Source: Chloroflexota bacterium (GTDB lineage: Bacteria > Chloroflexota > Anaerolineae > Anaerolineales > Villigracilaceae). Taken from it: a stretch of DNA of 64,000 nucleotides. The position numbers were made by a program, and so were the translations under genes. Of this stretch, positions 10,956 through 40,493 are shown one piece after another (the stretch's first letter is position 1; the number at the start of each line of letters is the position of its first letter). A model generated the notes under the pieces. It was not told the origin of the DNA and ran no database searches. It was given only the letters and a program-made list of their open reading frames with translations. Where the stretch lies: the NCBI GenBank assembly GCA_016213105.1, contig JACRBN010000025.1, positions 248,001 to 312,000 on the forward strand. Reading direction: 5' to 3'.

Positions 10956-11022
10956 TATGGCGGTTTCCTTCTTTATGTTTTTTTCCGCGCGATATTCAAT
11001 GGGCGGGCTGCCCGCCTATGTT

Positions 11023-11077
11023 AGCGGAACTTGTGTCCGGGCGTGGACTCTGCCTGGGAGCAGGAAAAACTCAAGAC
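11023..11077. repeat. Spacer repeat, copy B
   Basis: Begins AGCGGAACTTGTGTCC and continues with the core GGGCGTGGACTCTG then CCTGGGAGCAG and AAAAACTCAAG. It is identical to copy C over about 25 bases of core and alike over about 50. A 9-bp palindromic GGGCGGGCTGCCCGCC lies just before it. Confidence 0.75.
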
Positions 11078-11164
11078 AGCCTGCCCCTTACCAGAACTGG
11101 ACTCGCTTCGCGACCAGTAAGCAGACGATGATTTATCAGGACACACCACGCTTTATTAGCCCGT

Positions 11165-12154
11165 CTAAGGATTATATATACTTTCATATCTCGTCGGAGG
11201 ATCTATTTTAAGTGCAGCCTTGTAACAGCAGTCCCCTGGGTGACCACTGTTTAGTAGTTTAAATAATTCCATATCCACGCCTGGACCATAACCGCTATAT
11301 GAACCACCGTGATTTGTTTTTAACCACCACATCGAATAAGGCAAATTAAAAGTTATACTCCAACCACCCGAAGAATCTCCACCATACAAACCCATGTATA
11401 CGTAGAGTTTATTGCTGTCCAAATTAGTTCCCATTCCTACGCCATAAACGTTATCCTGCCACATAGTGACATTTTTCATTTTATTGATTCTTACAAATGC
11501 CACACCAAATTCTGTTATCGCCCTTACGCCTGAAGGAATCTGGGAAAGATCGCCAGTATACATAGGCCAGATTGTATATTCTTGTGGTTTGTATCCATTA
11601 CCGTCATTTAAATCATTAGCCCAGATCCCATCGATCTGTACCTTCCCCCAGTCCACGGGGTCGTTGCTCTTCTGCGCTAGCGACCAAAGTTGTAAATAAG
11701 CTTTGAAATCCTCATCGGAAGTAGTTTGACTATTCTGGCGTGATCTCCAAAGCCTATAAAAAGTACGGGCTGCAAAATGAGCTAGTGCATCTTTAGAATT
11801 TTCACCTTTGGAATTATTAAAGCGGGGATTTATGTAAATTTTGTGTAGAGGCGGATTAGAACTCTTCAATGATTCATCGGTAATAATGCTTAGATTAATT
11901 TCCACATCCATATAAGGTTGTGCAATCGTCTCTATGTATGCAGGTTGCAATTCTTTTTCTACAATAGGTGTAGTTGTCTCGGTCGCTATTTGCGTTGGTG
12001 TAGGAGTTGATGTTGGTTTCAGTGTTGATGTAGGAACTGCTGTGCTTGAAGCGGTAGCCGTTAATGTTGGTGGAGAGACAAAAGTGCCGCACCCAGATAA
12101 GACTGTAAGGAGAACAATGGACAAGATAATCAGTGTAAGCGACCTAGATTTCAT
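11165..12154 (-). CDS. Lipoprotein of unknown function (AT-rich gene)
   Basis: A 329-residue exported lipoprotein: signal peptide residues 1-21 ends in the lipobox LSGC, followed by a Ser/Thr/Pro linker (about 28-60) and a globular domain of about 260 residues. The mature domain has no motif I recognise; it is rich in Tyr, Trp and Gly (e.g. DNVYGVGMGTNLDSNKLYVY; GGYGGDSS-like turns). Base composition is clearly more AT-rich than in the flanking genes, and codon use follows that, which suggests acquisition from another source. GAGGA precedes the ATG at 12154. Flanked by spacer repeats B and C. Confidence 0.75.
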   Translation of the reverse strand: MKSRSLTLIILSIVLLTVLSGCGTFVSPPTLTATASSTAVPTSTLKPTSTPTPTQIATETTTPIVEKELQPAYIETIAQPYMDVEINLSIITDESLKSSNPPLHKIYINPRFNNSKGENSKDALAHFAARTFYRLWRSRQNSQTTSDEDFKAYLQLWSLAQKSNDPVDWGKVQIDGIWANDLNDGNGYKPQEYTIWPMYTGDLSQIPSGVRAITEFGVAFVRINKMKNVTMWQDNVYGVGMGTNLDSNKLYVYMGLYGGDSSGGWSITFNLPYSMWWLKTNHGGSYSGYGPGVDMELFKLLNSGHPGDCCYKAALKIDPPTRYESIYNP

Positions 12155-12219
12155 AATATCCTCATGTCTATGTGAGCAACGGAAAACTCTTTACTTTGCA
12201 CGTGCGGGCTAACGGCGAT

Positions 12220-12269
12220 AGCGGACATTGTGCCCGGGCGTGGACTCTGCCTGGGAGCAGAAAAACTCG
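12220..12269. repeat. Spacer repeat, copy C
   Basis: AGCGGACATTGTGCCC, then GGGCGTGGACTCTG, CCTGGGAGCAG and AAAAACTC. Nearly the same as copy B at 11.0 kb. Located between the genes ending at 12313 and starting at 12154, both on the minus strand; AT-rich DNA follows. Confidence 0.75.
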
Positions 12270-12312
12270 TTTTTTTATAATCTAAATCCTAGCTATATCC
12301 AATCGCTTAATG

Positions 12313-12789
12313 CTATTTTCGATCTAACACTTGTAGTGGATCTGAAAGAAGAGTTAGCATTAGCACTTCTTTTGTGTACATATCATGATGCTCTGCTATA
12401 AACGCCCTGATAGCAGGGCTAGATTTATATAATCGGTGTATATAATTTTCCCAAGTGTCCCACAAATGAGAAGGAAGTGTCATGCGTTTTTGAATTACAT
12501 GCTCAAAAAGATCAAGATAATATTCTGAAATTATCATTACTTGGTCGTAATTTGGGTTTTTTTCATCTATTGGTTTATTTTCATAAAAATATGGGCGAAG
12601 GTTCGGGAAATCTTTAAAAACTGCCAATATCTCCCGCATATGCATTGATAACATATCATGGGCTTCACCTTTGATTGACATTTCGACTTGTCGTAATTGT
12701 TTAATTATAAAGAATATACCTGCAAGCGTTATGATGGTTTGCAGAATTGAATTGATGGTTTGAGTCAGTTCCAAAGATAATGAATTCAT
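12313..12789 (-). CDS. Hypothetical protein with N-terminal membrane helix (AT-rich gene)
   Basis: A 158-residue protein of unknown function. One hydrophobic segment (about residues 12-30, ILQTIITLAGIFFIIKQL) anchors it; the rest is helical and charged (MHMREILAVFKDFPNLRPYF; ISEYYLDLFEHVIQKRM), a pattern seen in small single-pass proteins of the DUF4760 or DUF6082 sort, though neither can be asserted. The gene is AT-rich, stands alone and is bordered by spacer repeats C and D. Confidence 0.65.
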   Translation of the reverse strand: MNSLSLELTQTINSILQTIITLAGIFFIIKQLRQVEMSIKGEAHDMLSMHMREILAVFKDFPNLRPYFYENKPIDEKNPNYDQVMIISEYYLDLFEHVIQKRMTLPSHLWDTWENYIHRLYKSSPAIRAFIAEHHDMYTKEVLMLTLLSDPLQVLDRK

Positions 12790-12868
12790 GATGACATCTC
12801 TTGAAAATAGATTTTTTTACTGCAACGTACTATGTGAAACTACTAACTATTTGAATTGACATCACCCA

Positions 12869-12906
12869 CTCGGGTGTGGACTCTGTTTGGGAATAGATAA
12901 AACTCA
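12869..12906. repeat. Spacer repeat, copy D (degenerate)
   Basis: CTCGGGTGTGGACTCTG, then TTTGGGAATAGATAAAACTC. It matches copies B and C at most positions but is AT-shifted like its surroundings, as expected of an older copy. Confidence 0.65.
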
Positions 12907-13008
12907 AGCCGTAAATTGTTTGCACATAGCATATTGCACGCTATGCCATTACCAAATCTGCAAAATGTCCATAGCCGATTTGTTGGGCGCATTTTTATCG
13001 CACAAAAT

Positions 13009-13986
13009 TTATTCTACTTCTAAAGAGATGCCGAACACAGAATAATGTACTTTCATTGTATCTGGTGACTGAGGAACAAAATTGTGGACAAAGGTAATTT
13101 TTTCCAGATAACAATCTTTCATAAACTCATACACTGGTATTTTCAAGCAGTCAATTACTGCATTTGCTCCATTTTTGCTCATCCCACCCCATACATTGGT
13201 AACTGTTTCAGGACTGGAAGTTTCCCGAACATAATCACCCACATTTCCTGGACACCATTCCCTGATATTTTTCCCTAAAATTAATTCAACATCTATAGAG
13301 GGTGCATCCTTGAAAACAAGCCTAATTTTCCCCATGCTCCGATTTGCGTAGATGATTTTGCTGTTCCCAGAATTAATTAAGAAATAAGCTGATTTAACTC
13401 GATTTACCGTTTCGGAAAGTTGAAGCTCAACTTGATAACCGCCATAATCAAAAGGCTGATAATCACGTTTGGGGTCGTTTGTATCAAAAATTAGCGCATC
13501 CTGTTTTAACTGAAATTGCGCTCCGCCTAAAACAACATCCCCAATTGGCGGGTCTATATAACGGTCTTTTAGATATGAATTTCCAAAACCTGGTCGCAAG
13601 GGAATTGATATAAATTTTGTTCTAGCTATATTAGTTACTTTCTTCTTGCTCATAAATATTATTTGGTGAATTTTAGATAATCCCCAACCGAGCAACCCAA
13701 TTATGTAGAATGCAAAAGAAAAAGCGGTGATTTTCCAATCTGAATATAGGCGAAAAACAATTATTCCAAACGCAATGACGATACAAAATGGCAAAGAAAA
13801 ATACCATTTTTCGACCACAAACCATTTAAATATATATACAAAATATGCAAATAATTTATTAAGCCATATTTTAAATTTACTGGATCTAAAGTAAGCAATT
13901 GCGATACCACCCACTGCCAAAATCAACGTAGCAATTAATTCAGAAACGATGCTTGGAAGAAATTGAGACCAATCTATTTGCGTCAT
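13009..13986 (-). CDS. Hypothetical membrane protein with large C-terminal domain (AT-rich gene)
   Basis: A 325-residue protein with up to four hydrophobic helices in the first 115 residues (about 12-32, 45-60, 64-82 and 88-106) and a soluble C-terminal domain of about 200 residues. That domain has alternating strands (GDVVLGGAQFQLKQDALIF; YGGYQVELQLSETVNRVKSA; SKIIYANRSMGKIRLVF), suggesting a beta-sandwich fold. No motif fixes a function. Strong AT bias, own promoter region and lack of co-oriented close neighbours fit the other genes of this island. The start at 13986 is the first Met of the frame. Confidence 0.65.
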   Translation of the reverse strand: MTQIDWSQFLPSIVSELIATLILAVGGIAIAYFRSSKFKIWLNKLFAYFVYIFKWFVVEKWYFSLPFCIVIAFGIIVFRLYSDWKITAFSFAFYIIGLLGWGLSKIHQIIFMSKKKVTNIARTKFISIPLRPGFGNSYLKDRYIDPPIGDVVLGGAQFQLKQDALIFDTNDPKRDYQPFDYGGYQVELQLSETVNRVKSAYFLINSGNSKIIYANRSMGKIRLVFKDAPSIDVELILGKNIREWCPGNVGDYVRETSSPETVTNVWGGMSKNGANAVIDCLKIPVYEFMKDCYLEKITFVHNFVPQSPDTMKVHYSVFGISLEVE

Positions 13987-14203
13987 AACATTTGCACCGA
14001 TTTTTATTTGTATTTTTTGATTATTCTGTTAGCGATACGCCTATACGTGTCTGCGCAGAGCGTTTCCACTGAATACTTTTTACATGACAAAGACCCAACT
14101 CACAATCCTGTCCTTCATGCCCTTACCAAACTTCTAAAGGGGAAATCCCATGCTCTAAATCCGACACCGTGACATCATTATAGATGTCCGCCCTTTTAAA
14201 ATC

Positions 14204-14230
14204 AATAGCCTCCCGTAACGGAAGGCTATT
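14204..14230 (-). terminator. Hairpin downstream of the kinase-like gene and gene fragment
   Basis: AATAGCCT pairs with AGGCTATT around a CCG/CGG inner stem (one A-C mismatch) with a TAA loop. On the minus strand it is followed by GATTTTAAAA. It lies 12 bp after the broken gene end at 14242 and is a plausible intrinsic terminator for minus-strand transcription. Confidence 0.55.
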
Positions 14231-14241
14231 GAACAAATCCC

Positions 14242-14325
14242 CTACGGCCGATACAGCTCCTCGCGCACGAGGTGGCCGCAGACGATCTTGAGGAACAGCG
14301 CGGGGATCAACCAACCGTATTCCAT
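14242..14325 (-). pseudogene. Duplicate 3' fragment of the membrane-protein gene at 15131
   Basis: Reads MEYGWLIPALFLKIVCGHLV followed by REELYRP and a stop. This repeats the last 25 residues of the intact gene at 15131-15718 (FEWLIPALFLKIVYGHLV, REEPYRP) with three substitutions and a different stop codon. It begins 3 bp after the stop of the kinase-like gene at 14329. The intact end and this fragment therefore flank the kinase-like gene as imperfect direct repeats of about 82 bp. Confidence 0.85.
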
Positions 14326-14328
14326 CTC

Positions 14329-14979
14329 TCATATATCCCAAAAGGAAAGCACTTGGGGAACGATTTCATCCATGCAGGCGCGAGAGGTATTGATCTTCAA
14401 CCATTCCATCCTGGTTCTTGGGAGGAGGTTAAAGAGTAACTCCTGCTGTTTTTTATAATACTCGACGATTTCAAGATTCGAGTTGCCGAACTGGCGCAGG
14501 AATTGCTGCCAACCGGCATTATTTCTCTCAAGAATGATCCGCTGTTCCATATCGGCTTCGTCGACTTCGAGAATGCATAACTTGCAGTTTAGTTTTGCAA
14601 GGCGTACATCGATTGGCCTTACATACTCCCAATCCAGCCCGTAATGAAATACATGTGTCAAATGAAAACGCTCCAACAAAAACGGAAAACGATGATTGGT
14701 CCGATTCCTGGCGCTCCAATCCATTCGACTGGAGCGTTCAGACACCTGCTCAAAAAACTGCACATAGAACTCAAGCACTTCCAAATGGTCAGCAGGCACA
14801 AGTCCTTCCCTGGATAGCTTTTGCTCCAGGATGCGCGAGGTATGGTGCTCGGAAATTACGATGGATGAAAGGTAACTTTTCTGAACGAAAGGGGCGCTTT
14901 GCGTTAAAGCATGAACGAGCGCTGTCTTTCCAGCCCCACAAATTCCTTCAACGATCAACCCAGACACATCCCGGTTCAT
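14329..14979 (-). CDS. P-loop nucleoside/nucleotide kinase-like protein
   Basis: A 216-residue P-loop NTPase. The Walker A motif is GICGAGKTALV (residues 13-23), and LLERFHLTHVF (about 101-111) resembles the (D)ERFxxSxxAY motif of thymidylate and deoxynucleoside kinases. No lid Arg cluster or base-recognition motif was identified, so the substrate is unknown. AGGAACC precedes the ATG at 14979. The gene lies between an intact gene end (15131) and a broken copy of that end (14242), which suggests it arrived by an insertion or duplication event. Confidence 0.7.
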   Translation of the reverse strand: MNRDVSGLIVEGICGAGKTALVHALTQSAPFVQKSYLSSIVISEHHTSRILEQKLSREGLVPADHLEVLEFYVQFFEQVSERSSRMDWSARNRTNHRFPFLLERFHLTHVFHYGLDWEYVRPIDVRLAKLNCKLCILEVDEADMEQRIILERNNAGWQQFLRQFGNSNLEIVEYYKKQQELLFNLLPRTRMEWLKINTSRACMDEIVPQVLSFWDI

Positions 14980-15056
14980 GGTTCCTAATCCCTGGTCACA
15001 GCACGCCTCCAGCCGCAGCTAAAAGCGCAGAGCCACAAAGAACGACGCTTGAAAAT

Positions 15057-29056: not shown

Positions 29057-30495
29057 TTAGGGTTTAGCACTTTCAAAATATATTCCGCCGTGCGTTGACC
29101 AGACGTGGCATCCGTGAAGGTGACCTCATCTTCCACGAACTTGCGGCGTTCCTGCGAGTCGATGGTGCGGTCTTTCAGGTACAGATTGAGCGCATCGCGC
29201 AATTCGTTTTCATCTTTGGCTACACGACCCGCTTTGGCAAGGCGGAAGCGCTGATGGGTGGGCCAGTCGCCGATTTCCTTTAGCGAGAGCGAGAACTTGT
29301 TGGGTTTGTTCCAGCCGCCAGGGACGTCGATGGTGGCGGCGATCATGGGCGTGTCGTGGACGGCGGTCTCGACCAGCATGGTCGAGTAGACCGTCACCAC
29401 CACATCCGAGTAGGCCATCATGGAGGACTTCTCATCCATGTCCTCGCCGCCGTAGTAGCCAAGCGAGCCACCCAGCGCCACAGGCTGGACGACATGCACG
29501 TGCGGATATTTCTTCTCCAACTCGAAGACTTGCGCGCGTTCGTCGGCGAAGATCTTCGGCTTGTCCTGGAAGTGACTCGGGTGCAGGCGGATCAACAACT
29601 GCGACGGCTCGGCCAGCGCATCGGACGAGACCAGTTTCGCCAGCGCTTCGATGTTGGGATAGTTCGGCGCAAAGTGGACGAAGCTGCTGGCGTACGAGAT
29701 CAGCTTGCGGCTCGGGTCGAGGCCGTGCAGATTGAAATACTCGTCGCGCGGCATGAGCCATTGCTTGCGAAAATATCCATCGTAGGATGGGATACCGCCG
29801 ATGTTGACCTGCTCGGGCTTCCAATCCGAGCCGTTGACCAACTCGTCCTTTTGCAGCTGCGACCAGCAGGTGGCCCACTGCACGTCCGCGCCTGGGACGT
29901 TGTAGCTGGAAGAATTGTCCCAGCCGACGATGACGGTCATGTTCGGGATCCCCCTTTGGGCGGATTCGCGCAGCAGGTAGCGGTCCATGCGCCAGCCAGG
30001 GGTGGAGGCGATGACCAGGTCGGGCTGGTACTTGTCGAAGAGGTCGGAGTACAGATTTGGCGTGAAGCGTTTTTGGATTTGCACCAGCCATCTGCGGGCG
30101 AAGGAAAAATTCCGCAGCAGGAGGATCGCCAGCGCGGAGGGAATCCACACCCCCAGGCGGAACTTCCAGCCGTTCTCGGCCCACACCTCCCAAATGTGAC
30201 TGTCCATCGCTTCGGTGTTGATGCGGCGCGAACCGCCGACGCGGCGCAGGTAGATGAGCAACGATTGCAGGCGCGGGCTGACCTTTTTGGCGTAGTCGTC
30301 CGCCTGCTTGAGGCGCAGACCTTCGAAGGTCAACCCAGGCTGGGCGAAGCGCGCCGCGATCTTGCCTCTGGTTTCGTCGTCGGTGAGGACGACGACTTCA
30401 ACGCCCGCTTTGAGCAGCGTCGGGACGACGTCGCTTTGCAGGAAGTAGATGATTGCCATGCCGTGGTCGGCGGAAATGAAAATGCGTTTGGTCAT
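29035..30495 (-). CDS. GT-B glycosyltransferase / CDP-glycerol transferase-like
   Basis: Predicted surface-polysaccharide transferase of 486 residues. The N-terminal half begins RIFISADHGMAIIYFLQSDV; the C-terminal nucleotide-binding half has YASSFVHFAPNYPN, LIRLHPSHF and the glycine-free donor loop DVVVTVYSTMLVETAVHDTP followed by MIAATIDVPG, much like CDP-glycerol glycerophosphotransferases and capsule GTs. The family differs from classical GT4. A relative is at 43270. AAAAGGA precedes the ATG at 30495. The last residues (VIARRP) and the stop come from a MITE-like repeat; a duplicate of the first 11 codons is at 30628-30669. Confidence 0.78.
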   Translation of the reverse strand: MTKRIFISADHGMAIIYFLQSDVVPTLLKAGVEVVVLTDDETRGKIAARFAQPGLTFEGLRLKQADDYAKKVSPRLQSLLIYLRRVGGSRRINTEAMDSHIWEVWAENGWKFRLGVWIPSALAILLLRNFSFARRWLVQIQKRFTPNLYSDLFDKYQPDLVIASTPGWRMDRYLLRESAQRGIPNMTVIVGWDNSSSYNVPGADVQWATCWSQLQKDELVNGSDWKPEQVNIGGIPSYDGYFRKQWLMPRDEYFNLHGLDPSRKLISYASSFVHFAPNYPNIEALAKLVSSDALAEPSQLLIRLHPSHFQDKPKIFADERAQVFELEKKYPHVHVVQPVALGGSLGYYGGEDMDEKSSMMAYSDVVVTVYSTMLVETAVHDTPMIAATIDVPGGWNKPNKFSLSLKEIGDWPTHQRFRLAKAGRVAKDENELRDALNLYLKDRTIDSQERRKFVEDEVTFTDATSGQRTAEYILKVLNPNVIARRP

Positions 30496-30538
30496 AAATC
30501 CTTTTATACGTCACACCTGCACTTGCGTGCGGTGCAAG

Positions 30539-30626
30539 TGTTGCGAGCGCGTAGCGCGAAGCAATCTCAGGCTAGCATGCAAGCATGAGATTGCTTCGGG
30601 CGGGAGAACGCCGCCCTCGCAATGAC
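30539..30626. repeat. MITE-like palindromic repeat, copy 4
   Basis: GTTGCGAGCGCGTAGCGCG, GAAGCAATCTCA, a centre with CTAGCATGCAAGCAT, TGAGATTGCTTCGGG and GCCGCCCTCGCAATGAC. The left end is degenerate. It lies between the intact 5' end of the gene at 29035-30495 and the short duplicate of that end. Confidence 0.8.
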
Positions 30627-30627
30627 A

Positions 30628-30669
30628 TCAAGTGCCGCGGTCGGCGGAGATGAAAATGCGGTTGGTCAT
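30628..30669 (-). pseudogene. Duplicate 5' fragment of the glycosyltransferase gene at 29035
   Basis: Reads MTNRIFISADRGT and stops. The intact gene begins MTKRIFISADHGM. The nucleotide match is about 40 bp, from just before the ATG, then breaks into the MITE-like repeat. It lies directly upstream of repeat copy 4 and just downstream of the AT-rich gene at 30757. Confidence 0.78.
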
Positions 30670-30756
30670 GTAGTCTGTTAGTCACGCAGCCAGACAGTCT
30701 ATTTCTTGTTCTACAGCTTACTTCTATGAATTAATATTACAAGATATTCATTTTCT

Positions 30757-31758
30757 TCATTCAACGTTTGTAATTAGCGGCATTTGTCTACCAGTTTGCA
30801 AGTCAAGGAGCCAAATTTCAAGAAAATTGTCTTCTTTTATAAAAGTAATGTATCTCCCGCTGGGTGACCATATAACATCTTTTTCAATCGTTCCGTTTAA
30901 TATAAAAGGAGTCTTTTCTATGATTGAACATGAAAAGGGGTTTTCTTTAAATTGAAGTCTGACAACTTCAAGATTTTCGTTGGCTTGAAAAACCAATTTC
31001 GCACCGTCTGGCGACCAAGAAAGAAAATAGACAGGGTGATCAACTTTTAGGGACGCCATTTCCCTTGTTGGAAGATAAATAAAAATGATTTCCTGCTCAT
31101 CGACATTGCTTTTTTTCAAGGCAAGCAATGTGCTATCAGGAGACCATGCGGGGTCAGTGGAAACCAGAAAATCGCCTTTGAAGATTTCCTTGTTATTCTC
31201 ACTTATGGAAAAATCAAAACCTTGAAAACCATCCTTTTGTCCTACCAACTGAATTAAATACTTTTTGTTGGGAGATAAATATGTATAGTTAGGCAAATTA
31301 TTATCTTTGCGATAATACTCAACATGATTATCACTCTCCTTAATCAATCCAGATTGAATGTCATACTCCATAAGTCCACTTCGATAGTCTTGCCACATTA
31401 ATTCACTCCCCTTTACCGACCAAACTGGATGCAACTTGTATCGTCCATATGTTAATCGTTTGAACTCTCGTGTTTCCATGTCTACATAACAAATTTCACG
31501 TGTGGATTCCCACCAACTAGGATTGTTCCGAGAAATATTGTCGTACCCATCTGTTGGATAGGAATAACGACACTCAAACGCCACAAATTTCTCATCGGGC
31601 GACCATGCAGGATCTAATTGTCCCACCATGTGGGGAATACCAAATACAATGATGGAAGAATAGTTTATTAACCAAATTCCAAATATAAAGACCAATCCTA
31701 AAACAATCAATACTCCAAGAGTGATTCTTGACGTAAGAGATAGTTTATGCAATTTCAT
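30757..31758 (-). CDS. TolB-like beta-propeller membrane-anchored protein (AT-rich gene)
   Basis: A 333-residue protein with one N-terminal hydrophobic helix (about 12-33) and an extracytoplasmic domain with repeated WSPD-type blades: DPAWSPDEKFVAFE, HPVWSVKGSELMWQ, DPAWSPDSTLLALK, LSWSPDGAKLVFQ, VIWSPSGRYITFI. The WSP(D/S/V)G(S/A)K motif is that of TolB/PD40 six-bladed propellers. A scaffold or sensing role is likely; no partner is seen. It is strongly AT-rich and stands out among the surrounding polysaccharide genes, suggesting later insertion. Confidence 0.82.
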   Translation of the reverse strand: MKLHKLSLTSRITLGVLIVLGLVFIFGIWLINYSSIIVFGIPHMVGQLDPAWSPDEKFVAFECRYSYPTDGYDNISRNNPSWWESTREICYVDMETREFKRLTYGRYKLHPVWSVKGSELMWQDYRSGLMEYDIQSGLIKESDNHVEYYRKDNNLPNYTYLSPNKKYLIQLVGQKDGFQGFDFSISENNKEIFKGDFLVSTDPAWSPDSTLLALKKSNVDEQEIIFIYLPTREMASLKVDHPVYFLSWSPDGAKLVFQANENLEVVRLQFKENPFSCSIIEKTPFILNGTIEKDVIWSPSGRYITFIKEDNFLEIWLLDLQTGRQMPLITNVE

Positions 31759-31798
31759 TTTGTCTCAATTGATTTATAGCCATCAAATAGCAAGAAAT

Positions 31799-32746
31799 CT
31801 ACGAGTAATACCAATTGAAAATCTTGTTATACACCGCCAGCAACATCTTCTTGACAGGGCCAGCATTCAGCACACGTCGTGCAAAACCTTCTTTCCTCTT
31901 TCCTCTTTCCTTCCCCAACTCCCCTCGCAAATACCCCAGCGTATTTGACATATTCATCGCCAGCGGATCGGAGACCATCAGGCGCAGCAGGCCCGCGTCG
32001 TTCATGCGCTTGTCCAATTGGCGCACCTGTCCCATGGGCTTGTCCATGTCGAAGGGCAGGAATTGCTGGAGCGTGGATTTGTAGGCCGTAAACTGCCAGT
32101 GCGACGCGCCCGCCATCGCGGTCACGCCCTTGTAGACTACTCTCCAATCTCTAGTCTCTGCATATACCTTTTTGTTCTCCTCCTCGGTCTGCCCGAGCGA
32201 GAGGTTGAATTCGAGGAAGGTCTCCCACGGGATGAACTGTCCCTCAGTAAGGGTCGCATTGTCCCGCGCCCACTTCAGGGTCGACTCGTAAAATTCGGGC
32301 GGGGTGCGGAACGGTCGTGCGGTCACCATGCCCACGTTCGGGAAGGTTTCGAGGATCTCCACCGAGCGTTTGAGCCAGTTCGGCGAGAACAGCACGTCCG
32401 CGTCGGTGTAGGCGATGATCTCGCCAGGCGCTCCCGTCAGCATCACGTTCCACGCGCCGCCCTTGCCCATGTTCTTCTCCGAGAGGATCAGATACTGGAT
32501 GCGCCCCTCGTCTTTTTCCTGGATGAGAAAATCGCGCACCTCGGGGCAGGACCCGTTATCGAAGACCATCAGGTCGAAGGGCAGGCCCGCGTCCCTGCGC
32601 ATGGTTTCGAGCGAAACCTTCAGCACATCGAGGGTCTCGGCATAGAATCCGCTCAGGAAGGGGATGTAATTCAGCAGCGCGACCGTGATCCGCTCGGGGC
32701 GGGCCACGTCTTTGACGAACTTGGCGGGGTTTTGACCTTTTCTCAT
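31799..32746 (-). CDS. Family 2 glycosyltransferase with in-frame repeats
   Basis: A GT-A transferase of 315 residues, cytosolic. RITVALLNYIPFLSGFYAET near residue 18, the nucleotide-sugar region DLMVFDNGSCPEVRDFL, KNMGKGGAWNVML and the metal-binding TDADVLFSPNWLKRSVEILE (DxD near residue 117) define the family. The start MRKGQNP at 32746 is chosen because the upstream reading is heptad repeat. Two heptad repeats interrupt the C-terminal part: at 32135-32160, encoding AETRDWRVVY, and at 31891-31910, encoding GKERGKRKEG; neither belongs to the fold. The Lys/Arg stretch may be a surface loop. Confidence 0.82.
   Translation of the reverse strand: MRKGQNPAKFVKDVARPERITVALLNYIPFLSGFYAETLDVLKVSLETMRRDAGLPFDLMVFDNGSCPEVRDFLIQEKDEGRIQYLILSEKNMGKGGAWNVMLTGAPGEIIAYTDADVLFSPNWLKRSVEILETFPNVGMVTARPFRTPPEFYESTLKWARDNATLTEGQFIPWETFLEFNLSLGQTEEENKKVYAETRDWRVVYKGVTAMAGASHWQFTAYKSTLQQFLPFDMDKPMGQVRQLDKRMNDAGLLRLMVSDPLAMNMSNTLGYLRGELGKERGKRKEGFARRVLNAGPVKKMLLAVYNKIFNWYYS
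31891..31910. repeat. Intragenic heptad repeat (CTTTCCT type)
   Basis: CTTTCCTCTTTCCTCTTTCC, a 7-bp-period repeat lying inside the GT2 reading frame and encoding a Lys/Arg/Glu/Gly stretch. Confidence 0.7.
32135..32160. repeat. Intragenic heptad repeat (CTCTAGT type)
   Basis: GACTACT-CTCCAAT-CTCTAGT-CTCTG, a degenerate 7-bp-period repeat within the GT2 gene. Encodes AETRDWRVVY on the minus strand. Confidence 0.65.
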
Positions 32747-38397: not shown

Positions 38398-39468
38398 TCA
38401 ATTACCTAAATCCGTCCAGCGCAAGTCCTTGCCGAGCGGCATATCGACCAGCGCCTTCGCGCCGAGCACGTTTTCGATCTGGTCGGGTTTGATCGCGCCA
38501 GGAGTGGCGGGACGCAGCACGTCAATCATGTCACGGGTGAAGACCTCGCCCGCCTTGACCTCGCGCGCGGCGCGCAGGCAGCGGCGCTGAACGATGGCGG
38601 TATCCACTTCGTTGGCCGCGATGAATTTATCCGCGGAGCCGAGCGCGCGTTCGAGCAGGCGCGTCTCCTCGACCATCTTCGCCCAATTCTCAGGATTCAT
38701 GGCGAACTTGTGGTCGGGACCTTCGCGGTCATTGCTGTCGGTGAAGTGGCGCTCGATGACGCGCGCGCCCAACGTCACGGCGGCGATCACAGGCGAGACA
38801 GCGTGGGTGTGGTCGGAGAGTCCCAGGATCACATCGGGGAACATGCTGGCGTAGGTCTTGAGCACGTTGATGTGCAGGTGGTCGTAGTTCTTCGGGCTGG
38901 CGGTGTAGTTGGTATTGCATTGCATCAGCACCAGTTGCTTGTTGATCTTGAGGATGGCGTGTACCGCCTTCTGCACCTCGCCGATGGTGGATGCGCCCGT
39001 GGCGACGAAGAACGGCTTGCCCTTGGAGGCCATGCGTTCCAGCGCCTCGATCCAGTCGATCTCGCCCGAGCCTGCCTTGTAGACTTCCACGTACTGGTCG
39101 AGGAAGTCGATGGCCTGGAAATCGTAGGGCGAGGAGAAGTAGTCGATGCCGACCTCGTTGCACTCTTCCATCAGGATGTTCGACCACTCGAACGGGATGG
39201 ATGCGCCCTTGTAGACCTCGAACACCGACTTCTTCCAGGCCGCCTGGTGCGAAACCTGTCCGCCGCTCATGGCCTTGAAGCCGTAATCCGAGACAATCTT
39301 GGGGGCGTCGAAATTCTGGAACTTGGCCGCATCCGCGCCCGCTTCCTTTGCCAGGCGGATGAGTTGCTTCGCGCGCTCGAGGTCGCCGTCGTGGTTGGCG
39401 GCAATGTCCGCGATGAAATAGGTGGGATGGTTCAGGCCGATGGTGTGGTTGCCAAATTTGATGTCCAT
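38398..39468 (-). CDS. NeuB/PseI/SpsE-type sialic acid synthase family protein
   Basis: Condenses a hexosamine with PEP to a nonulosonic acid (N-acetylneuraminate, legionaminate or pseudaminate); 356 residues. TIM-barrel part: YFIADIAANHDGDLERAKQL, KFQNFDAPKIV, FFSSPYDF-like IDYFSSPYDFQAIDFL, and YKAGSGEIDWIEAL, which is the usual KIxSxDxxNxPLL equivalent; GLSDHTHAVSPVIAAVTLGA matches the GxSDH motif. The C-terminal SAF-like domain (REVKAGEVFTRDMIDVLRPA) completes the family. GGAGGCACCC lies before the ATG at 39468. Which acid is made is not clear. Confidence 0.9.
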   Translation of the reverse strand: MDIKFGNHTIGLNHPTYFIADIAANHDGDLERAKQLIRLAKEAGADAAKFQNFDAPKIVSDYGFKAMSGGQVSHQAAWKKSVFEVYKGASIPFEWSNILMEECNEVGIDYFSSPYDFQAIDFLDQYVEVYKAGSGEIDWIEALERMASKGKPFFVATGASTIGEVQKAVHAILKINKQLVLMQCNTNYTASPKNYDHLHINVLKTYASMFPDVILGLSDHTHAVSPVIAAVTLGARVIERHFTDSNDREGPDHKFAMNPENWAKMVEETRLLERALGSADKFIAANEVDTAIVQRRCLRAAREVKAGEVFTRDMIDVLRPATPGAIKPDQIENVLGAKALVDMPLGKDLRWTDLGN

Positions 39469-39506: not shown

Positions 39507-39679
39507 TGTGGATAACTGGTGTTTTTGCTGTGGATAATTGACGTAAGGCGGGATATTATCCCGCCTTACATCTGTTGATAACTACGGATTTTCTGTGGAT
39601 AACCCTGCTGGAACTGTGCATAAAACTGGTCGAGTCCTGTGGAGAATACGGGAAGGGGCTCGCCCAAAGCTGTGGATAA
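39507..39679 (-). other. Cluster of seven DnaA-box-like sequences
   Basis: On the minus strand TTATCCACA occurs perfectly at 39679-39671, 39602-39594, 39537-39529 and 39515-39507; one-mismatch versions are TTCTCCACA (39646-39638), TTATGCACA (39623-39615) and TTATCAACA (39581-39573). All seven are followed by G and share one orientation. Successive boxes start 33, 23, 21, 21, 44 and 22 bp apart, so most spacings are near two helical turns. The perfect 9-mer was not noticed elsewhere in the window. Five boxes fall in the last codons of the RmlD-like gene and two in the spacer. No dnaA, dnaN or gid gene is nearby. Confidence 0.7.
39544..39568. repeat. Short palindrome at the RmlD-like gene end
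   Basis: TAAGGCGGGATATTATCCCG CCTTA, a perfect hairpin that includes the gene's stop codon and lies between two DnaA-box-like sequences. It could terminate minus-strand transcription, though no T-run follows. Confidence 0.6.
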
Positions 39680-40483
39680 CCTGTGAGTAGACAGCCACAA
39701 ATTAGGCGCGCGCCGCGCCGTCAGGCCGGAGTCCAGCACGGACTTGGGGGAAATGGTGGATTCGTCCAGTCCGAACTGGCGCGCCACCTCGACCCCAAAC
39801 TGGTACTTGCTCATCGGCTGCGGCCCGACCGCGTGATACAGTCCGCTCAGGCCGTGCTCGAGCATTTTGACCAGGATGCGTCCCGTGTCGTTGACCAGCA
39901 TGGGGCAGAAGGTGACATCCGTAAAGCCGCTGGCCTTCAACCCATTCGACAGACAGTTGTAGAAGAACTCCGCCAGGCTGCGCTTGCCGCTCGGACTCCA
40001 GCCGTAGATGTTGACCCGTGCCACGACCGCCTCGGGATACTCCGCCCCGACGGCCTGCTCCCCTTCCAATTTGGTCTGGGCATACACCCCCAGCGGATTC
40101 GGGACGTCCGCTTCAGTGTAGGCGCCCTGTTTGCTGCCGTCAAAGACCGCATCGGTGGAGACGTGCGCCATGCGAATGCCGCGTGCCTTGCAGGCGCGGG
40201 CCAGTCGCGCGGGCAGGTGCGCGTTGAGGCGGCGGGCCAGGTCCGGGTCCGCCTCGCAGGCTTCGAGGTCCGCCAGGGCGGCGCAGTGGATCACCCCGTC
40301 GGGCTGGGCCGCGTCGAGGACGGAATCCACCGCCCCCGCGTCGAGCAAATCCGCCCGCACGATGCGGAATGGCGTCCCCGACAATTTGCCGCGGTCCACC
40401 ACCGCCACCTCGTGCGCCGACATGGCTTCGAGGGCGAGGTTGATTCCGAGCAATCCGCTTGCACCGGTGACGAGAAGTTTCAT
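39566..40483 (-). CDS. dTDP-4-dehydrorhamnose reductase (RmlD)-like SDR
   Basis: Extended SDR of 305 residues, RmlD-like; reduces a 4-keto nucleotide sugar. Rossmann motif KLLVTGASGLLGINLALEA; DGVIHCAALADLEACEADPD and VSTDAVFDGSKQGAYTEADV follow; the catalytic tetrad is in VYAQTKLEGEQAV (YxxxK). Size and STDAVFDG are typical of the RfbD group. GGAG precedes the ATG at 40483. Its last 38 codons hold five of the seven DnaA-box-like sequences, using the Leu codon TTA that is rare in the rest of the gene. Confidence 0.85.
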   Translation of the reverse strand: MKLLVTGASGLLGINLALEAMSAHEVAVVDRGKLSGTPFRIVRADLLDAGAVDSVLDAAQPDGVIHCAALADLEACEADPDLARRLNAHLPARLARACKARGIRMAHVSTDAVFDGSKQGAYTEADVPNPLGVYAQTKLEGEQAVGAEYPEAVVARVNIYGWSPSGKRSLAEFFYNCLSNGLKASGFTDVTFCPMLVNDTGRILVKMLEHGLSGLYHAVGPQPMSKYQFGVEVARQFGLDESTISPKSVLDSGLTARRAPNLWLSTHRLSTALGEPLPVFSTGLDQFYAQFQQGYPQKIRSYQQM

Positions 40484-40493
40484 GAAATTCTCC

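Follow-up and report, generated by a model that had tools for sequence, protein, structure and literature searches.

A cluster of DnaA-box-like sequences was found across the 3′-terminal region of an rmlD-like gene from the Anaerolineales (Chloroflexota), and recurs at the same place in orthologous genes of the family, where, judged by codon usage, it is kept at the expense of the usual codon choice. The array is read here as a candidate DnaA-binding locus outside the replication origin, which would titrate or regulate DnaA (probability roughly 0.55). The stretch of DNA analysed, termed the window, comprises 64,000 nt (C24:248001–312000) of the own genome G000 (5.39 Mb, 28 contigs, 97.55% complete).

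Box array and host gene

Pattern search returned seven matches to TTATCCACA with at most one mismatch on the (−) strand (starts 39507, 39529, 39573, 39594, 39615, 39638 and 39671), four of them perfect (39507, 39529, 39594 and 39671), in agreement with the original prediction of seven same-strand boxes at 39507–39679. The base after each box is G (7/7) and the start-to-start spacings are 22, 44, 21, 21, 23 and 33 bp, which bears out both the following G and the predominance of 21–23 bp spacings that had been described; gaps of 12–14 bp between boxes predominate accordingly. As predicted, no perfect box was found elsewhere in the 64,000-nt window. With one mismatch allowed, the window holds 13 matches against 6.96 ± 2.48 expected (at least 13 in 3 of 100 shuffles), and 7 of these 13 are packed into 173 bp.

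At the genome level, 47 perfect boxes were counted in G000, compared with 16 for the reversed-pattern control, and four of the 47 belong to the array. The pair TTATCCACA-N8..38-TTATCCACA occurs in two places only, the array and C21:26106. The array is the densest 250 bp of the sampled DNA of contig C24 (384 kb; 7 boxes, runner-up 3), and for G001 and G009, too, the rmlD locus is the densest place in the DNA sampled, with 8 boxes (sample of 431 kb) and 6 boxes (sample of 1.2 Mb), respectively.

The host gene (39566..40483, (−) strand) encodes an RmlD-like NAD(P)-dependent sugar reductase, identified as an ORF with a match to PF04321 (E = 3.3e-57, residues 2–293 of a 306-residue query; the query, 39566–40486, begins one residue ahead of the likely ATG). 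As the original prediction stated, five of the seven boxes lie in coding sequence, namely in this ORF, whose stop end is at 39566; the codons of the last two are located beyond the Pfam match. All boxes are on the (−) strand and are named by their position relative to the rmlD stop codon; shares given for orthologues refer to sites with at most one and at most two mismatches, respectively. Box −111 (39671..39679) is a perfect TTATCCACA and encodes Leu-Ser-Thr (76% and 95% of 37 orthologues), box −78 (39638..39646) reads TTCTCCACA and encodes Phe-Ser-Thr (32% and 78%, n = 37), and box −55 (39615..39623) reads TTATGCACA, which fits TTATNCACA, and encodes Tyr-Ala-Gln (73% and 95%, n = 37). Box −34 (39594..39602), again a perfect TTATCCACA, encodes Tyr-Pro-Gln (95% and 100%, n = 37), and box −13 (39573..39581), TTATCAACA, encodes Tyr-Gln-Gln (86% and 100%, n = 36). 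The claim that Leu is encoded by TTA at the coding boxes thus held for the box at 39671 only, since Phe-Ser-Thr is read from the box at 39638 and Tyr-x-Gln, in another frame, from the remaining three.

Two further perfect boxes, +31 (39529..39537) and +53 (39507..39515), are intergenic. Boxes within 120 bp past the gene were also recorded in L038, L039, L040, L041, L044, L067–L072 and L074. The G+C content of the intergenic part is 0.37–0.47, compared with 0.58 in the surroundings. Low values were also seen at 11000–15000 (0.37–0.41) and 30000–32000 (0.46) against 0.58 for the window, and these stretches are possibly acquired DNA.

Occurrence in related genomes

Matches to RmlD at E ≤ 1e-60 were obtained from 30 of the 37 family genomes and from 13 of 24 others of the order. 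Of the 37 loci in the orthologue set, the genome search contributed 29, which represent 22 genera, and named records the other 8. Before counting, the paralogues L224–L226 and the duplicates L073 (identical to L048) and L075 (identical to L038) were left out; of the 52 rows that stayed, 37 were classed as family-like by a phmmer score of at least 375, with the exception of L063, which belongs to another family. L220, a partial gene from this family in which 3 boxes are present, scored too low and stands outside the 37.

At least three box-like sites (at most one mismatch) were found from −150 to +120 relative to the stop codon in 36 of the 37 loci, and at least one perfect box in 35. Box-like sites lie on the coding strand in 170 cases and on the opposite strand in one, and the only coding positions that recur are −111, −78, −55, −34 and −13. 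Nine extra loci outside these counts (L285–L293) each hold at least three boxes, the lists of L285 and L286 being identical.

Among the 14 outgroup rows of the order, seven are without a box (L076, L215, L217, L219, L221, L222 and L223), a single site with one mismatch is present in L218, and six (L063, L211–L214 and L216) carry a partly different box set. In a tree of rmlD sequences from which the tail was excluded, the box-less rows need 3 changes, compared with about 6.7 in shuffles; a single gain of the array, with losses afterwards, is possible.

The pattern TTATNCACA-12-TTATCCACA was present in 83 of 104 genomes in the family search (reversed control 0 of 104), and 40 of those 83 carry the rmlD type TTAT[AG]CACA. 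In all 21 of these 40 genomes for which the position of rmlD is known, the pair TTAT[AG]CACA-12-TTATCCACA lies inside rmlD. A looser pair pattern gave one control match, in G009. The strict three-box pattern with 21 bp spacing was found in 12 of 396 genomes of the class, 8 within the family and 4 elsewhere.

Codon choice at the boxes

Box by-products of the protein sequence were considered, i.e. that Tyr-Pro-Gln-type residues in the RmlD tail give rise to box-like codons by coincidence. Tyr-Pro-Gln is also present near the end of the protein in the outgroups L076 and L218; there, however, it is encoded without a box (TAT CCC CAA and TAT CCG CAG). The codons of 37 tails were drawn anew 1000 times from the same genes with the protein fixed, which yielded 0.52 expected perfect boxes with a maximum of 5, compared with 45 observed, and 2.7 expected matches to TTWTNCACA, compared with 99 observed. 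The statistics, the P values for the codons fixed at the boxes included, treat related loci as independent (pairwise protein identity median 60%, maximum 91%). A protein-driven coincidence was rejected on these two grounds and is regarded as negligible in probability. The rmlD gene bodies, nearly six times as long as the tails, contain 2 perfect boxes.

At box −13, the codon before Tyr/Phe ends in T in 37 of 37 loci and encodes Ser (29), Gly (4), Arg (2), Asn (1) or Cys (1); the Tyr/Phe codon is TAT (32) or TTT (5), and the codon after it is CAA (24) or NCA (13), through Gln (24), Ala (6), Pro (3), Thr (3) and Ser (1). Over the rest of the gene, the most frequent third base has an average share of 0.55. 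Rare codons are used almost throughout at the boxes: CCA for 35 of 36 Pro (body share 0.08), AGT for 29 of 29 Ser (0.10) and GGT for 32 of 34 Gly (0.14). Across the 37 orthologues, box bases are constant where the encoded amino acid differs, the opposite of conserved amino acids with lost boxes, which had been named as the outcome contrary to the original prediction. Fixed box bases under changing amino acids are a reversal of normal codon evolution and the strongest result of the analysis; maintenance of the boxes by selection on the DNA, and not on the protein alone, is strongly supported by this codon pattern and by the recurrent positions and shared strand of the boxes.

Neighbouring genes and transcription

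Upstream of rmlD lies a PF02719 gene, which we take to be pseB-like; downstream follow a NeuB-family synthase gene (38398..39468, (−) strand, PF03102, E = 3e-68), which is outside the array and given as context, and a glycosyltransferase gene. The neighbourhood looks like a surface-polysaccharide operon. The pseB-like gene is upstream in 35 of 37 orthologous loci. The start of neuB is less than 200 bp from rmlD in 22 of 37 loci and 0.27–1.3 kb away in 9, and neuB was absent from the 1.5 kb examined past rmlD in the remaining 6; every locus with a distant or unfound neuB (9 + 6) retains at least two coding boxes.

An inverted repeat at 39540..39572 (16-nt arms, 1 nt apart) extends over and past the rmlD stop codon, between the coding and the intergenic boxes, and its RNA fold reaches −25 kcal/mol (z = −8.4). 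Hairpins of differing sequence are present after the stop codon in some relatives only. When seven such sequences were folded, L071 was no better than shuffles and L072 and L074 were weakly better, and with covariation thus assessed on seven folds, the hairpin was left out of the proposed mechanism. In L052, a tandem repeat with units starting attcgttccattcg was seen immediately 3′ of the rmlD stop codon.

DnaA on the array could block or attenuate transcription by RNA polymerase near the rmlD stop codon, which would couple the pseB-like/rmlD/neuB operon, a surface-glycan operon, to the replication cycle. The location of the boxes at the rmlD 3′ end, their orientation along transcription, the pseB-like gene upstream in nearly all loci and the hairpin found here and in some relatives would fit such a role, and the sections of PMC10950094 on E. 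coli describe DnaA as a possible transcription roadblock and the datA locus itself as read through. However, the coding boxes persist while the distance of neuB varies, which makes regulation of neuB unlikely as the sole role, and where neuB begins 9–40 bp past the stop codon, a roadblock inside rmlD would be expected to truncate rmlD transcripts too. Control of transcription is the main rival explanation and is held to be possible but doubtful.

Replication origin

The original prediction had offered a datA-like titrating site, a regulatory site and an origin element. Raw GC skew, calculated for 20 stretches of G009, was weak and gave way to skew at third codon positions with correction for gene strand (TA3, GC3). 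In G001, a genome of the same genus, TA3 switches on contig C8 at 552 kb (within 90% of best, 531–559 kb; 0 of 500 permutations). A box cluster is located 1 kb away, at 553.1 kb, and rmlD at 136 kb. The genes beside this cluster presumably encode a deoxynucleoside kinase and an LTD-domain protein. In G000, the TA3 switch of C21 at 24.6–29.0 kb encloses the orthologous box cluster (26.1 kb). G009, a single contig of 4.40 Mb, has a TA3 switch at 441–562 kb and the opposite switch at 2.34–2.43 Mb, with a box cluster at 505.3–505.6 kb. Its rmlD gene is at 150 kb, and its dnaA gene, at 3.07 Mb, is separated from the likely origin by 1.84 Mb along the shorter arc. No TA3 switch was found at the array in G001, G009 or the own contig C24, the best splits of which are at 111 kb (reached in 55 of 500 permutations) and 478 kb (in 20 of 500).

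GC3 was the less clear measure, and its best splits differ from those of TA3, being located at 487 kb in G001 (within 90% of best, 485–548 kb) and 801 kb in G009; for C21 of G000 the best GC3 split is at 13 kb (108 of 500 permutations). In G399, the best splits are at 3.49 Mb for TA3 (2 of 500 permutations) and 0.38 Mb for GC3 (33 of 500), and the box pair is elsewhere, at 3.905 Mb. In three genomes, G000 among them, TA3 switches where other box clusters lie and not at rmlD, on which ground the array was rejected as oriC; with GC3 splits that differ, it is probably not the origin. From the three options, the origin thus fell away on TA3 skew, and the selected DnaA-type boxes agree with the other two, titration and regulation, which would look alike in sequence. 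The absence of dnaA from the vicinity, noted in the prediction, was borne out: dnaA of G000 is on another contig (C9:33798–34274; L001, L006), and in the 19 kb around it no box cluster was found, with one single-mismatch site.

Contig C21 of G000 holds two oriC-like box clusters about 60 kb apart (L004, 8837–9136; L005, 8683–9540), each near one of two paralogous genes, which we take to be LTD-like. The first type of cluster is present in G001 and G007, and the second in G009, at its skew switch; this division points to a duplication or relocation of the origin within the group.

A second, dormant or former origin at rmlD would accord with such apparent moves of origin-like clusters, with the AT-richer intergenic part, and with the box density of the array, higher than at the likely oriC in G001, G009 and the own genome. 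The TA3 results at rmlD in the three genomes speak against a second origin, as do boxes that are unidirectional and mostly coding and an array sequence without a long AT-rich unwinding stretch, and this explanation is considered quite improbable.

Distance of rmlD from the origin

On contigs that carry both sites, rmlD is separated from an oriC-like cluster by 61 kb (G355), 107 kb (G007), 155 kb (G456), 227 kb (G399), 354 kb (G009), 358 kb (G446) and 417 kb (G001). The origin used for these distances is backed by skew in G001 and G009 only and by G001-like gene neighbours in G007, while in G399, G446, G456 and G355 it was assumed from the box pair alone, the skew splits of G399 lying elsewhere. 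Only G009 and G399 are single contigs. Restriction to genomes in which the same contig carries both sites biases the distances towards low values where assemblies are fragmented, so that nearness to the origin counts as weak evidence. The box-less rmlD genes of G044 and G057 (L219 and L221) are also found close to an oriC-like pair, at 52 and 41 kb; rmlD may therefore be near the origin for another reason, and the nearness may be older than the array. Subject to the contig bias and to these two genomes, the distances would suit an early-replicated location.

Comparison with known systems and proposed function

Clusters of DnaA boxes outside the origin that control initiation are known from a few model bacteria, and datA of E. 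coli requires IHF. Like datA, the array is an off-origin cluster with its boxes in one direction. It differs in that 5 of its 7 boxes are coding and in that no match to the HU/IHF family PF00216 was found in G000 (97.55% complete), by which an IHF-dependent route of the E. coli type becomes doubtful; PF00216 was matched three times in G001 and once in G009 (best E = 2.1e-7). The likeness to datA is meant as one of working, with no claim of sequence or positional homology. The own DnaA retains the stretch GGRDHTT, presumably the domain IV signature.

DARS cores contain three boxes that are not all in the same direction. A DARS-like site, reactivating ADP-DnaA instead of inactivating or titrating it, would also appear as an off-origin box cluster, and the direction of action is not readable from the sequence; the one-way array resembles datA more, and a DARS-like role is judged highly improbable.

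The datA sections of PMC5742627 describe essential boxes that are unidirectional, a minimal region of 183 bp and a location near oriC; on the E. coli map, datA is at 94.7 min and oriC at 84.6 min, with datA downstream of a transcription unit (passages of PMC5742627 and PMC10950094). The datA locus is non-coding (PMC4585315). The chromosomal box clusters described for B. subtilis and S. coelicolor repress untimely initiation and are termed analogous to datA (PMC5742627); they belong to other phyla. For E. coli, a concentration of boxes near oriC is interpreted as titration in PMC12371093, where the enrichment is broad and regional, whereas the array is single and fixed in one gene. Likeness to datA and to the B. 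subtilis and S. coelicolor clusters, together with chromosomal titration in E. coli, favours titration or regulation of DnaA off the origin.

Under this preferred reading, DnaA would bind the array cooperatively as a filament, with which head-to-tail boxes in one direction at a spacing of about two helical turns would be compatible. If located in an early-replicated region, the array would be duplicated soon after initiation, the duplicated copies would lower free DnaA, and re-initiation would be held back. The array may merely sequester DnaA, or an ordered filament may also stimulate ATP hydrolysis. Two reports call for caution: PMC11317965 gives box pairs 2–3 bp apart as favoured by E. coli DnaA in cells, unlike the gaps in the array, and a site in the rplB ORF of B. 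subtilis was bound by DnaA in vitro and undetected in cells (passage in PMC4447404), so that a predicted site within an ORF may fail in vivo.

A more far-reaching version holds that, in one family of Chloroflexota, the array overwrote the RmlD C-terminus and forms an IHF-independent locus that inactivates DnaA beyond titrating it and couples surface-glycan expression to replication; we consider this unlikely. If true, the sequence of the RmlD tail would be dictated by the binding site of the replication initiator.

In the literature search, nothing was found on a conserved, gene-internal DnaA cluster of Chloroflexota. By its sequence, the array is unusual compared with known off-origin clusters in that it lies in coding sequence. 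A cluster kept at the same address, inside a gene, in at least 22 genera would show that control of initiation by off-origin clusters can come under strong long-term selection in Chloroflexota, and the array would be a clean natural case of a DNA-binding site shaping a protein.
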